Shown one piece after another: positions 43,795 to 48,047 of a stretch of DNA of 50,738 nucleotides. The notes below the pieces were generated by a model, which was given only the letters and a program-made list of their open reading frames with translations, was not told the DNA's origin and ran no database searches. The DNA is taken from positions 1 to 50,738 of the forward strand of contig CAJYAJ010000005.1 of NCBI GenBank assembly GCA_913065005.1. Direction: 5' to 3'. Source of the DNA: an uncultured Verrucomicrobiota bacterium (GTDB lineage Bacteria > Verrucomicrobiota > Kiritimatiellia > Kiritimatiellales > Pontiellaceae). The position numbers and the translations under genes are program-made. Position 1 is the stretch's first letter. The number at the start of each line of letters is the position of its first letter.

Positions 43795-44571
43795 ATGATG
43801 GAAATAGCGTTTTCGCCTTGCCCTAATGACACCTTTATTTTTAATGATTTGGCGCATCAATCAGATATAGCGGCGCATCTATATGACGTGGAACAGTTGA
43901 ATCGATTGGCTTTCGAGGGGCGCTATGATGTGACGAAGTTGTCTTTTCATGCATGGCTTTTGTTGCGAGAGACGTATCAGTTGCTGGAGGTGGGTGCCGC
44001 ATTGGGTCGAGGTTGTGGGCCGTTGGTTATCACGCGAGAAGCTGAACCCCTGCCGGAACGTCCACGGGTAGCGTTACCGGGGGAGCTGACAACGGCACAT
44101 CTTCTCTATCGGTTGTGTTATGGGGATGGGGCGGAGAAGGTTTTTATGCCCTTTCATGAGATTATGGATGCGTTGGCTGCGGGTGAGGTGGATGCGGGTG
44201 TGATTATTCATGAAGGTCGTTTTGTTTTTAAGGAGCGGGGGTTTCATTGCGCGCAGGATTTAGGGGGGTGGTGGGAAACCGAAACGGGCTTGCCGATTCC
44301 GCTGGGTTGCATTGCGGTTCGCAGAAATCTGGGTAAGGAAGTGATTTCAGATATCGAACAACGTCTGAAAAACTCCATAGAGCTTGCCTTTGCGTATCCA
44401 GAAAAAACGCAGGATTATGTTCGTGCGCATGCTCAGGAGTTGGATGATGGAGTCATGGAAGAACATATAAAGACATATGTAAATACGTTCACGCGGGGGC
44501 TGGGTGAGGAAGGTCGTGCGGCAGTGACGGAGTTGGAAAAACGCGCCTTTGCCGCCGGAGTGATTTCATGA
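43795..44571 (+). CDS. mqnD: 1,4-dihydroxy-6-naphthoate synthase
   Basis: 258 residues (family about 270-290). MqnD of the futalosine route converts cyclic dehypoxanthinyl futalosine to 1,4-dihydroxy-6-naphthoate. N-terminus MEIAFSPCPNDTFIF is diagnostic; also GRGCGPLVI and ETGLPIPLGCIAVRR. Two adjacent ATG codons (43795, 43798) without a ribosome-binding site. Its stop overlaps the next gene by ATGA, starting a five-gene run. Confidence 0.93.
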   Translation: MMEIAFSPCPNDTFIFNDLAHQSDIAAHLYDVEQLNRLAFEGRYDVTKLSFHAWLLLRETYQLLEVGAALGRGCGPLVITREAEPLPERPRVALPGELTTAHLLYRLCYGDGAEKVFMPFHEIMDALAAGEVDAGVIIHEGRFVFKERGFHCAQDLGGWWETETGLPIPLGCIAVRRNLGKEVISDIEQRLKNSIELAFAYPEKTQDYVRAHAQELDDGVMEEHIKTYVNTFTRGLGEEGRAAVTELEKRAFAAGVIS

Positions 44572-45998
44572 TTGGAGTGCTTTTTGCGACGCAGATGGAG
44601 GCGGCCGCCTTCCAGAACCGAGAGGTTCCTGATGATGTCGTGGTGAAAGTTGCCGATGAGATGGGGCTGGAGGCGGCTCGTATTGCGGCAGAAGAGTTGG
44701 TTGAAGCGGGGGCGACTACAATCATTAATGCGGGCGTGTGTGCGGCATTACATAATCGAGTTGAACGAGGGTCTGTGTATCGGATTTCGACGGTGATTAC
44801 GGAGGAGCTGAAGGCAGCTGTTAATGTGGGTGTTGGGCTCGGACTCAAGAAATTGGTGAGTGTGGAGGAGCCGTTGTATCAGGCGGATCGCAAACAGGAG
44901 TTGGCTCGACAGTATGATTTGGTTGATATGGAAGGCTATGCGGTTGCGCGGGTTTGTGAGGCGCATCAAATTCCATGTATTTTATTAAAGGGCGTCACTG
45001 ATTTTGGCGATGCGATGGCGAAAGAGGATATCCAAACCCATATTGCGCCGGTCTCTGAAACGGTGGCCGAAGCGATTTTGTTTGCTTTGGATGGAATGAA
45101 ATCACGTTCTGATAACCGAGGGGATAGCACCGAGACAGATTTGAAGGGACGTGATCATGCTGAGGGTTTGGTGAAGCGACTTCATCGTTTTACAAAAGTG
45201 GAGCATCTCATTTTTTCATTACCGCTTTTATTTGCCGGTGCTTGGTTGGGCGCGAAGGGGTTCCCTTCTCTCTCTGTTTTACTTTGGATTACGTTGGCGG
45301 GATTGGGAGCGCGCACGTTTGGTATGGCTCTCAATCGTATTTTTGATCGTAAGATCGATGCGGTTAATCCGCGCACAGCTGGGCGAGAATTGGCTGCGGG
45401 GGCGTTGTCACTTAAGCAGGGCTATGGAGTGGCATTGTGTGGGGTCGTTCTTTATTTCATCGCCTGTGCTGGATTAGGTGAGTTTGTTCTTACGTTGTCT
45501 CTTTTTCCGCTTATCCCGCTCACGATCTATTCGTTGTTGAAACGATTCACGCCGCTTTGTCATTATGGCATTGGGGTGGCGTTGGGGTTTGCTCCTTTAG
45601 GTGCCTTTGTTGCGGCGTCGGGTGATTTAGCATTTTCATCGGAATTGATTTTGTTGTGTCTGTTTACGTTTTTTTGGATCAGTGGATTTGATATTATTTA
45701 TGCGTTGATGGATCGGGAATTTGATCAAACGCATGGCGTGAAGAGTCTGCCATCGGCGTTGGGTGAGAAGGGGGCGCTAGCCGTGGCTGCGTTCACTCAT
45801 TTAATCGCCTTCGCTTTGTTAGTCTTATTGTGGATGGGCTTCGGTGGAGCGCTTTCCTTGTTGTCTTTAAGCGTTGCGGCGGTTGCATTTGGTGCGGCTT
45901 ATGTTCCAACGATTCCGATAGCCGTTCGCTTTTTTCCCATATCGGCGGTTGCGGGAATTGCGGGTGCGCTCGTTGTTTTATTAGGAGGTATATCATGA
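44568..45998 (+). CDS. mqnBP: Fusion of futalosine hydrolase-like nucleosidase and UbiA-type prenyltransferase
   Basis: 476 residues, two enzymes in one chain. Residues 1-175: compact nucleoside phosphorylase/nucleosidase fold with E11 (QMEAAAF), VDMEGYA (E122) and catalytic-type D145 (GVTDFGD), fitting MqnB that releases hypoxanthine from futalosine; the usual N-terminal glycine loop is shortened. Residues 176-200: charged linker. Residues 205-476: UbiA membrane prenyltransferase with both Asp motifs, N256-RIF-D260-RKI-D264 and D375-IIYALM-D382-REF-D386, fitting MqnP that prenylates 1,4-dihydroxy-6-naphthoate. Overlaps mqnD and ubiX by ATGA on both sides. No frameshift or stop separates the halves. 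Confidence 0.88.
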   Translation: MIGVLFATQMEAAAFQNREVPDDVVVKVADEMGLEAARIAAEELVEAGATTIINAGVCAALHNRVERGSVYRISTVITEELKAAVNVGVGLGLKKLVSVEEPLYQADRKQELARQYDLVDMEGYAVARVCEAHQIPCILLKGVTDFGDAMAKEDIQTHIAPVSETVAEAILFALDGMKSRSDNRGDSTETDLKGRDHAEGLVKRLHRFTKVEHLIFSLPLLFAGAWLGAKGFPSLSVLLWITLAGLGARTFGMALNRIFDRKIDAVNPRTAGRELAAGALSLKQGYGVALCGVVLYFIACAGLGEFVLTLSLFPLIPLTIYSLLKRFTPLCHYGIGVALGFAPLGAFVAASGDLAFSSELILLCLFTFFWISGFDIIYALMDREFDQTHGVKSLPSALGEKGALAVAAFTHLIAFALLVLLWMGFGGALSLLSLSVAAVAFGAAYVPTIPIAVRFFPISAVAGIAGALVVLLGGIS

Positions 45999-46573
45999 AT
46001 CTAGTGGTGGCATTAACGGGAGCGTCGGGCTCCTATGCAGCAAAAGCGATTGTCGAGCGTTCGAAGTGGCCTGTTACGCTGATTGCAAGCAAGATGGGTA
46101 GAATGGTCTATGAGCAAGAGGCAGGCCCTTTCGAAGAGTTGGAAGAGATGGTGGATCAGGTTTGGCAGGATGGAAATCTTGCCGCGACAGTTTCATCGGG
46201 ATCCGTGCCGACCGTGGGGATGGTCGTTGCACCTTGTTCGGCAAACACGTTGGGAAAAGTTTCAGCGGGGATTGCAGATTCGTTGGTTTCTCGATCGGCG
46301 CATTGTCATTTAAAGGAAGGACGGCGAGTGGTATTGTGTGTGCGTGAAGCACCTTGGTCGCCTATCACCGCGCGAAATGCGGCTTCGTTTTCGGCGGCTG
46401 GAGGAACGGTTATGCCCATCTCGCCCCCCTACTATATGGGTAAGGGGCGAATGCCCCATGAAATTTCAGTGGCTGAGATGCTTGGTTTTTATGCCGACCA
46501 TGTCTTGGCGTTGTTCGGACAGGAAGCTCCGCAAACCTGGGCGGATGTTCGAGAATGGGGGAAGAAGTCGTGA
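45995..46573 (+). CDS. ubiX: UbiX-type flavin prenyltransferase
   Basis: 192 residues. Makes prenylated FMN for a UbiD-type decarboxylase. Motifs: ALTGASGSYAAKAI (FMN phosphate), VAPCSANTLGKVSAGIADSL, and LCVREAPWSPI. In the futalosine route UbiX/UbiD relatives (MqnM/MqnL) decarboxylate the prenylated naphthoate; the UbiD partner is absent here. ATG 45995 overlaps the fusion gene stop and follows TAGGAGG; a longer frame from 45830 lies in that gene and is rejected. Confidence 0.92.
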   Translation: MNLVVALTGASGSYAAKAIVERSKWPVTLIASKMGRMVYEQEAGPFEELEEMVDQVWQDGNLAATVSSGSVPTVGMVVAPCSANTLGKVSAGIADSLVSRSAHCHLKEGRRVVLCVREAPWSPITARNAASFSAAGGTVMPISPPYYMGKGRMPHEISVAEMLGFYADHVLALFGQEAPQTWADVREWGKKS

Positions 46574-47289
46574 GTGATGCATCGCGTGATACGTTAATTT
46601 CAGCGAATGAAAACCGTGAAATGTTTGACCGCATTGCGGGCACCTATGATACGGCAAACCGAGCTATTTCACTGGGTCTTGATATCGGTTGGCGACGAAA
46701 AACCATCGAGATGTTGGCTCCGAGAGAAGAAGGGCTCTATCTTGATGTGGGCACCGGCACTGGGGATTTGGCGATGGAGTTATTGGCTCAAGTGCCTAAA
46801 GCACAGGTGGAAGCGATTGATCCATCTGAAAAAATGTTAGCCGTTGCGCGCGATAAAGCGTTGCAGCTCGGCGTGAGTCGGCGCCCGCGTTTTCAAAATG
46901 CAGATGCATTGAATTTACCGATGCCTGATGTCTTGTTCGATGGAATCGTATGTGGATTCTGCTTCCGAAACATTGAGCATCGCCAGCGGGCTTTATCGGA
47001 AATGTTTCGCGTGATGAAGCCGGGTGGGAAGTTGTTGATATTGGAGGCAACGTATCCGGAGAATGTCTTGGTTCGGTTGGGATATAAACTGTATACGCCG
47101 TTGGTGCCGTTGATCGGAAAACTTTTTGGCGATGGAGATGCGTATTCGTATTTGCTCGATTCGATCGAAGATTTTCCGCGACGCGATACAGTGACGGGAA
47201 TGTTCCGGATTGCGGGCTTTCAAGGTGTCTCTTCCACTCCCTTGGCAATGGGTACGGTCTCTATCTTTGAAGGAAGGAAGCCTGCCTAA
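46570..47289 (+). CDS. menG: Demethylmenaquinone methyltransferase
   Basis: 239 residues from GTG 46570 (overlaps ubiX TGA by GTGA, after GGGGGAAGAAG); ATG 46555 is an alternative five codons earlier. UbiE/MenG family SAM methyltransferase: MFDRIAGTYDTANRAISLG, DVGTGTGDLAMELL, and NADALNLPMPDVLFDGI. Methylates the quinone ring in the last step of menaquinone synthesis. The context, inside the mqn operon, favours menaquinone over ubiquinone. Confidence 0.93.
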   Translation: MSDASRDTLISANENREMFDRIAGTYDTANRAISLGLDIGWRRKTIEMLAPREEGLYLDVGTGTGDLAMELLAQVPKAQVEAIDPSEKMLAVARDKALQLGVSRRPRFQNADALNLPMPDVLFDGIVCGFCFRNIEHRQRALSEMFRVMKPGGKLLILEATYPENVLVRLGYKLYTPLVPLIGKLFGDGDAYSYLLDSIEDFPRRDTVTGMFRIAGFQGVSSTPLAMGTVSIFEGRKPA

Positions 47290-48047
47290 TGAAACCCGTG
47301 CGTTTCGCAGCAGCAGCTTATAGCAATTCTGCACCCTTGGTCGCTTGCTTGTCGCAAGTTGATCCGAATGTGGAAGTGTTTCATGGAGTGCCTTCGATGC
47401 ATTTGAAAGAGCTCCTCGCTGGACGAATTGACTGTGCTCTTATTCCGGTGGCGCATGCCATTCAACATCCGGAGTTAACGATTTTAGATCGGGTTGGAGT
47501 GGCTGCTGATGGAGCGGTGCGTAGCGTGTTGTTGAAATGTCATAAACCTGTTGATCAGATCATTACGGTCGCTCGTGATGTAGCATCAGGGACCTCCAAT
47601 GTATTAGCCGAGCTGGTGCTTGAACATCATGTTGGGGTGTCGGTTGAAATGGTTGATGATACCGTCGGTGCTGATGCTGAAGTGGTGATTGGTGATCGGG
47701 CTCTTTTGAGTGAGCCCGCTAGTGCCGGTGATATGGACCTGGCAGCCGCGTGGAAAGAGTTAACGAAGTTGCCTTTTGTTTTTGCTTTATGGGCTGTTCG
47801 CTCGGATTTCGATGAGGTGGAGCATATCGATGTTTTAACGCAGCACGCAGCTCAAATGGGAGTAGAGCGGATTCCTGCATTGGCTGCCGGATATGCAGAG
47901 CAGTTGGGAAAAACCGCTGGTTTTTGGAAAGAGTATTTGGAAAAATCAATTCACTTTCAATTAACGGATGCCGATCGGAAAGCTATTAAGCAGTTCAAAA
48001 CTATGGCGGCCGTGCACGAAGTGCTGACGGCACAGATGGAAAATTAG
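47289..48047 (+). CDS. mqnA: Chorismate dehydratase
   Basis: 252 residues. First step of the futalosine route: chorismate to 3-enolpyruvylbenzoate. Periplasmic-binding-protein-like fold with AAAAYSNSAPLVACL, DCALIPVAHAI and GVAADGAVRSVLLK. It is fifth in the operon, sharing one base with the menG stop. Its TAG shares TTAG with the PEP-CTERM gene stop on the other strand. Confidence 0.92.
   Translation: MKPVRFAAAAYSNSAPLVACLSQVDPNVEVFHGVPSMHLKELLAGRIDCALIPVAHAIQHPELTILDRVGVAADGAVRSVLLKCHKPVDQIITVARDVASGTSNVLAELVLEHHVGVSVEMVDDTVGADAEVVIGDRALLSEPASAGDMDLAAAWKELTKLPFVFALWAVRSDFDEVEHIDVLTQHAAQMGVERIPALAAGYAEQLGKTAGFWKEYLEKSIHFQLTDADRKAIKQFKTMAAVHEVLTAQMEN

Follow-up and report, generated by a model that had tools for sequence, protein, structure and literature searches.

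Does one gene of this locus encode two enzymes of menaquinone (vitamin K2) synthesis as a single membrane protein, and what would such a protein do? In the 50,738-nucleotide stretch analyzed here (the window), positions 44568-45998 of the forward strand form a single ATG-initiated frame of 476 codons (476 aa), which the initial annotation had described as an uninterrupted single-chain fusion of two futalosine-pathway enzymes. The Pfam domains and the same architecture in relatives confirmed this description, and the gene really does encode two menaquinone enzymes on one chain. Domain 1 (residues 1-175, 44568-45092) is a nucleosidase of the MTAN/PNP fold, residues 176-205 (45093-45182) form a partly disordered linker of variable length and sequence, and domain 2 (residues 206-476, 45183-45995) is a UbiA/MqnP-type prenyltransferase with nine membrane helices. 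The start of the frame is supported by its 4-base overlap (ATGA) with the upstream mqnD gene and by an M-I/T-x start conserved in 31 of 31 fusions.

The window comes from a fragmented MAG whose mqnE::mqnC gene is frameshifted at a G8 run, and assembly or sequencing might have joined two separate genes here. The chance of this is practically nil, and we rejected it because many independently assembled genomes, including the single-contig 4.1 Mb genome G384, carry the same unbroken fusion, which also excludes a hidden stop or frameshift between the halves. Full-length fusions were found in 29 of 193 genomes of the class sample, that is, in 17 of 18 of the window genus (window genome counted) and in 12 others from eight family groups (f4, f12, f19, f20, f28, f31, f84 and f86), so the domain pair that had been proposed for a search of PVC genomes is spread across Kiritimatiellia. 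All 11 window-genus genomes of the 388-genome phylum sample, the window genome again counted, have it at full length. The carriers in the genus include G436 (7.4 Mb, 5 contigs) and G441 (8.7 Mb, 6 contigs), and the MAG records L037-L039, among them 'Kiritimatiellaceae bacterium MED670', have the fusion as well. A GTDB-wide scan gave fusion matches in close relatives only. The closest MqnP outside the class, from the Gemmatimonadota MAG L040, was considered as a further case and rejected, being single-domain. Among cultured relatives, Pontiella strains F21 and F1 make MK-6 to MK-9, and Kiritimatiella glycovorans has no quinones (PMC7356697).

The gene lies in a tight operon on the forward strand, in the order mqnD, fusion, ubiX, ubiE and mqnA, each gene overlapping the next. 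The product of mqnD (1,4-dihydroxy-6-naphthoate synthase, 43795-44571; PF02621, 242 bits) is 44-88% identical to those encoded directly upstream of the fusion in relatives. Downstream, a ubiX-like flavin prenyltransferase gene (MqnM role, 45995-46573; PF02441) overlaps the fusion stop, again by ATGA, and is preceded by a Shine-Dalgarno-like AGGAGGT at about 45984; its product scores 108.6 bits with TIGR00421 against a cut-off of 108.9. It is followed by the ubiE/menG methyltransferase gene (46555-47289; TIGR01934, 208.8 bits, above the cut-off) and by mqnA for chorismate dehydratase (47289-48047; PF02621, 131 bits). Elsewhere in the genome, mqnE and mqnC are located on contig C9, and a UbiD nearest to the menaquinone-decarboxylase model on C1. 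The pathway set is therefore complete (mqnA, mqnE, nucleosidase, mqnC, mqnD, mqnP, ubiD/X and ubiE), with the mqnE::mqnC frame broken once. The statement that the two fused steps are not consecutive and that the gene adjoins mqnD was likewise borne out.

In domain 2, the UbiA Pfam match (PF01040) covers residues 218-444 with 159 bits (cut-off 34.2), and both Asp-rich motifs recognized in the initial annotation, N256xxxD260xxxD264 and D382xxxD386, are invariant in the 31 aligned fusions. Together with the nine membrane helices, this makes domain 2 a UbiA-type enzyme. The structural comparison agrees, with a Z score of 32 over 264 residues and 34% identity to Aeropyrum pernix UbiA (4od4; VIA-align). 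Of the more specific models, only that of the subfamily, TIGR01475, scored above its cut-off (217.8 bits). The cut-off of the specific MqnP model was not reached (182 bits at best versus 430), and it is the operon, with no other candidate in the genome, that supports the MqnP role. The possibility that the window genome has another menaquinone prenyltransferase was considered and rejected: apart from the fusion, one UbiA match was confident, and this is a HAD-UbiA protein from another family (PRK08238); a third match (C1:6819-7016) is below the cut-off. This leaves the fusion as the only MqnP candidate found. UbiA enzymes have both their N-terminus and their active site on the cytosolic side, and the nucleosidase is therefore expected to be cytosolic and held at the membrane.

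The AlphaFold model of the fusion (pLDDT 89.9, pTM 0.60) consists of two confident domains, including the UbiA helix set, and a disordered linker with pLDDT below 50 at residues 183-198. Among the 31 fusions, the linker spans 18-43 residues between fixed points. When the window gene was compared with that of L037, dN/dS was 0.046 in the nucleosidase, 0.081 in the UbiA domain and 0.90 in the linker; with L038, the corresponding values were 0.09, 0.18 and 1.12. Both domains are under strong purifying selection and the linker is nearly neutral.

Domain 1 matches PNP_UDP_1 (PF01048) with 52.8 bits (cut-off 25.1) and has the fold and the catalytic Glu/Glu/Asp of the MTAN-like PNP/UDP phosphorylase superfamily. 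The residues singled out at the outset, E11 (44598-44600), E122 (44931-44933) and D145 (45000-45002), are invariant in the alignment of 31 fusions and are the counterparts of the catalytic Glu/Glu/Asp in MTANs. By VIA-align, the domain superimposes on the H. pylori MTAN/aminodeoxyfutalosine nucleosidase with a Z score of 26 (1.4 Å over 176 residues) and on Chlamydia CT263 with a Z score of 24. The supposition that its N-terminus is short was not upheld: the sequence is intact from M1 to about residue 22, and the alignment instead shows an internal deletion. Compared with the fusions of other families, in which the nucleosidase is of near-standard length, that of the window genus has a shorter stretch from strand 1 to strand 2 (alignment columns 23-72) and has lost part of a middle loop.

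Curated models leave the substrate of domain 1 unfixed by sequence, because it stays under every equivalog cut-off (29-52 bits). With the MqnB futalosine hydrolase model (TIGR03664), the window domain reaches 29.4 bits where 124.7 are required, and the fused relatives reach 44.7-52.8 bits; with the MTAN model, the window domain scores 38.9 bits against 169. Of the description as MqnB-like, the nucleosidase fold of the pathway therefore stands, but TIGR03664 is missed and the structural neighbors are MTANs or aminodeoxyfutalosine nucleosidases. In Campylobacter, Helicobacter and Chlamydia, aminodeoxyfutalosine is stated to be hydrolyzed directly (PMC3937554). In the window genome (79% complete), the search for an adenosine or aminofutalosine deaminase found none: it has no A_deaminase protein, and the amidohydrolase adjoining mqnE::mqnC, the only one in the genome, was considered as an aminofutalosine deaminase and rejected, being a dihydroorotase. 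Since no deaminase was found, aminodeoxyfutalosine is the likelier substrate; since the domain also falls under the futalosine-hydrolase cut-off, canonical MqnB is not the favored identity. Fold neighbors and the missing deaminase thus point to an aminodeoxyfutalosine nucleosidase resembling Helicobacter MTAN and Chlamydia CT263, a reading that is favored and not proven.

A true MqnB, hydrolyzing futalosine after a deaminase step, shares the same fold and residues, and partial matches of 29-64 bits to the NCBIfam futalosine hydrolase model are in its favor. In addition, A_deaminase (PF00962) family genes are present in 10 of the 14 other fusion genomes, where the futalosine route is possible. 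Nevertheless, they are absent from the remaining 4 of 14 (G139, G274, G277 and G422) as well as from the window genome, where a dihydroorotase is the sole amidohydrolase, and the structural neighbors are of the aminodeoxyfutalosine type, so that we consider a true MqnB unlikely.

A separate complete mqnB elsewhere had been named among the findings that would refute the fusion reading; none was found in the window genome, but a separate MTA/SAH nucleosidase (MTAN) above the cut-off lies at G000:C36:1-747 (locus L046), where it is cut by the contig end. This enzyme could in principle supply the nucleosidase step, as Campylobacter MTANs hydrolyze aminodeoxyfutalosine (PMC3937554). Domain 1 would then be regulatory or serve MTA/SAH recycling outside the pathway, with the separate MTAN making dehypoxanthinylfutalosine. 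We regard such a division of labor as very unlikely, because the catalytic triad is invariant in a domain with a dN/dS of 0.046, and the domain is encoded directly 3′ of mqnD in the mqn operon wherever upstream DNA was examined, except in L039. Moreover, G301 (87% complete) has the fusion, and no other PNP-family protein was detected in it.

The most interesting part of the system, in our opinion, was outside the view of the initial annotation, namely a second fusion, MqnE::MqnC. When the class was searched with the MqnC model, single frames of ~735 aa proved to contain two full-length matches, and either half covers both related models from end to end. Taken alone, the C-terminal half exceeds the MqnC equivalog cut-off, and the N-terminal half reaches near 300 bits with the same model. 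The latter is probably MqnE, since the operon has it as its second CofH-like protein and TIGR03700 selects it as the best stretch in G274. CxxxCxxC clusters are kept in both halves. In all 29 genomes with the nucleosidase::MqnP fusion, MqnE is joined to or abuts MqnC, in a single frame in 27 and in two frames in the window genome and G363. The window gene (G000:C9:28290-30463; locus L045:1791-3982) is split at the G8 run, whereas its congeners have a single ~735-aa frame; in G363, the two halves are in neighboring frames. In the families outside the window genus, both fusions share a strand and a stretch of about 10 kb with ubiD and mqnA, as in the gene row of G420: mqnD, nucleosidase::mqnP, ubiX, ubiD, ubiE, mqnA, mqnE::mqnC.

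All sampled Verrucomicrobiota genomes from outside the class that have MqnE and MqnC encode them as separate proteins, and G279 has them adjacent and unfused. A third fusion type, MqnA::MqnC (622-623 aa), was found in G251 (L051:270-2135) and G345 (L109:676-2547) of families f30 and f35, which have a single-domain MqnP and neither of the other two fusions. Separate tandem mqnE- and mqnC-like genes and an mqnA-like gene were also observed in L052 (G098:C65:6000-11000), from a genome without an MqnP match. In f16/f17 genomes, for example in L070 (G121:C1:1806000-1824000), radical-SAM proteins match MqnC with about 320-345 bits; they were dropped as unfused controls, as no mqnA, mqnD or mqnP was beside them in the one locus read. 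In the window genus, a gene for a small DUF2237 protein (about 121 aa), possibly an accessory gene, directly follows mqnE::mqnC (L058:7649-8011 and L045:3978-4340; PF09996 tested in L058).

Taken as a whole, the evidence makes it probable that the gene product is a membrane-bound enzyme with two activities of the futalosine pathway and a flexible linker, which arose by stop loss and travels together with MqnE::MqnC; both activities, the substrate, the membrane side and the single origin are what we infer from the evidence above. The cytosolic N-terminal domain would remove the base, most likely adenine from 6-amino-6-deoxyfutalosine and less likely hypoxanthine from futalosine, giving dehypoxanthinylfutalosine, and the C-terminal domain would prenylate 1,4-dihydroxy-6-naphthoate. 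The flexible neutral linker would let each domain act on its own substrate while keeping the nucleosidase at the membrane. The fusion probably has a single origin in Kiritimatiellia, through loss of the stop between the mqnB-like and mqnP genes of an mqnD-mqnB-mqnP-ubiX operon. The MqnP tree is compatible with a single event, as one branch (1 change), at the weak support of 58/44, separates the fused proteins from the others. G251 has its nucleosidase and MqnP genes unfused, side by side in one reading frame and separated by two stops. A triple MqnD::nucleosidase::MqnP fusion suggested by a 737-aa open frame in that genome was rejected, as the DNA has separate mqnD, nucleosidase and mqnP genes with stops between them.

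With MqnE and MqnC on chain 1 and the nucleosidase and MqnP on chain 2, the pathway would pass from chain 1 (E) to chain 2 (nucleosidase), back to chain 1 (C), on to D and again to chain 2 (P), and the two fused proteins therefore hold interleaved, alternating steps. One may speculate that the nucleosidase is tethered next to MqnD, and that MqnD joins the two fused chains in one assembly. The futalosine pathway of Kiritimatiellia would then run on two interlocking fusions with MqnD between them, in a membrane-held assembly handing intermediates to and fro between the chains, from E to the nucleosidase and then to C, D and P, and alternate steps would be joined because the partner docks between them. 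This remains tentative, and on balance we think it somewhat unlikely. To the explanation that the fusions are by-products of gene order we give a nearly even chance: overlapping operon neighbors lost a stop, the halves work independently, and the benefit is equal expression at most, without channeling. It is compatible with the bifunctional enzymology and competes only with the assembly. The in-frame neighbors of G251, the adjacent unfused MqnE and MqnC of G279, the neutral linker of variable length and the fact that each fusion joins operon neighbors all favor it, whereas near-universal retention in nine family groups and co-occurrence with MqnE::MqnC suggest a benefit, though simple inheritance predicts the same. 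The interleaved pattern fits a two-chain assembly with hand-over and also stop loss between operon neighbors followed by inheritance.

We found no report of a nucleosidase-MqnP or MqnE-MqnC fusion in the open-access literature. If physical association lies behind the two conserved fusions, a menaquinone-making enzyme complex is to be expected. The fusions also offer a simple view of how an entire pathway can be packed into a short operon, and they provide a sequence marker for menaquinone-making Kiritimatiellia.

Among the closest known systems, domain 1 resembles Chlamydia trachomatis CT263 (PDB 4qaq), an MTAN-fold nucleosidase of the futalosine pathway that is likewise compact and shares the DMEG...SD/TD catalytic region, with 24% identity and the Z score of 24 given above. 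The gene for CT263 (201 aa) also overlaps mqnD (PMC3937554), but CT263 is stand-alone and soluble, whereas the window nucleosidase is fused to a prenyltransferase. The MTANs of Helicobacter and Campylobacter share the fold and the catalytic Glu/Glu/Asp with domain 1 (Z about 26), but they are single-domain proteins of about 230 aa with 18-20% identity and also recycle MTA/SAH. MqnB futalosine hydrolase (TIGR03664) has the superfamily and the pathway step in common with the fusion, which falls far below its cut-off. Domain 2 is complete and shares both Asp-rich motifs with MqnP/UbiA (TIGR01475; A. pernix UbiA 4od4); known MqnP is single-domain, and the fusion adds the N-terminal nucleosidase. 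For MqnE::MqnC, the bifunctional FO synthase FbiC/CofGH provides a precedent of two related radical-SAM enzymes on one chain, in line with the match to the CofGH model. It belongs to another pathway, in which CofG and CofH combine to form a single product, whereas MqnE acts before and MqnC after the nucleosidase.
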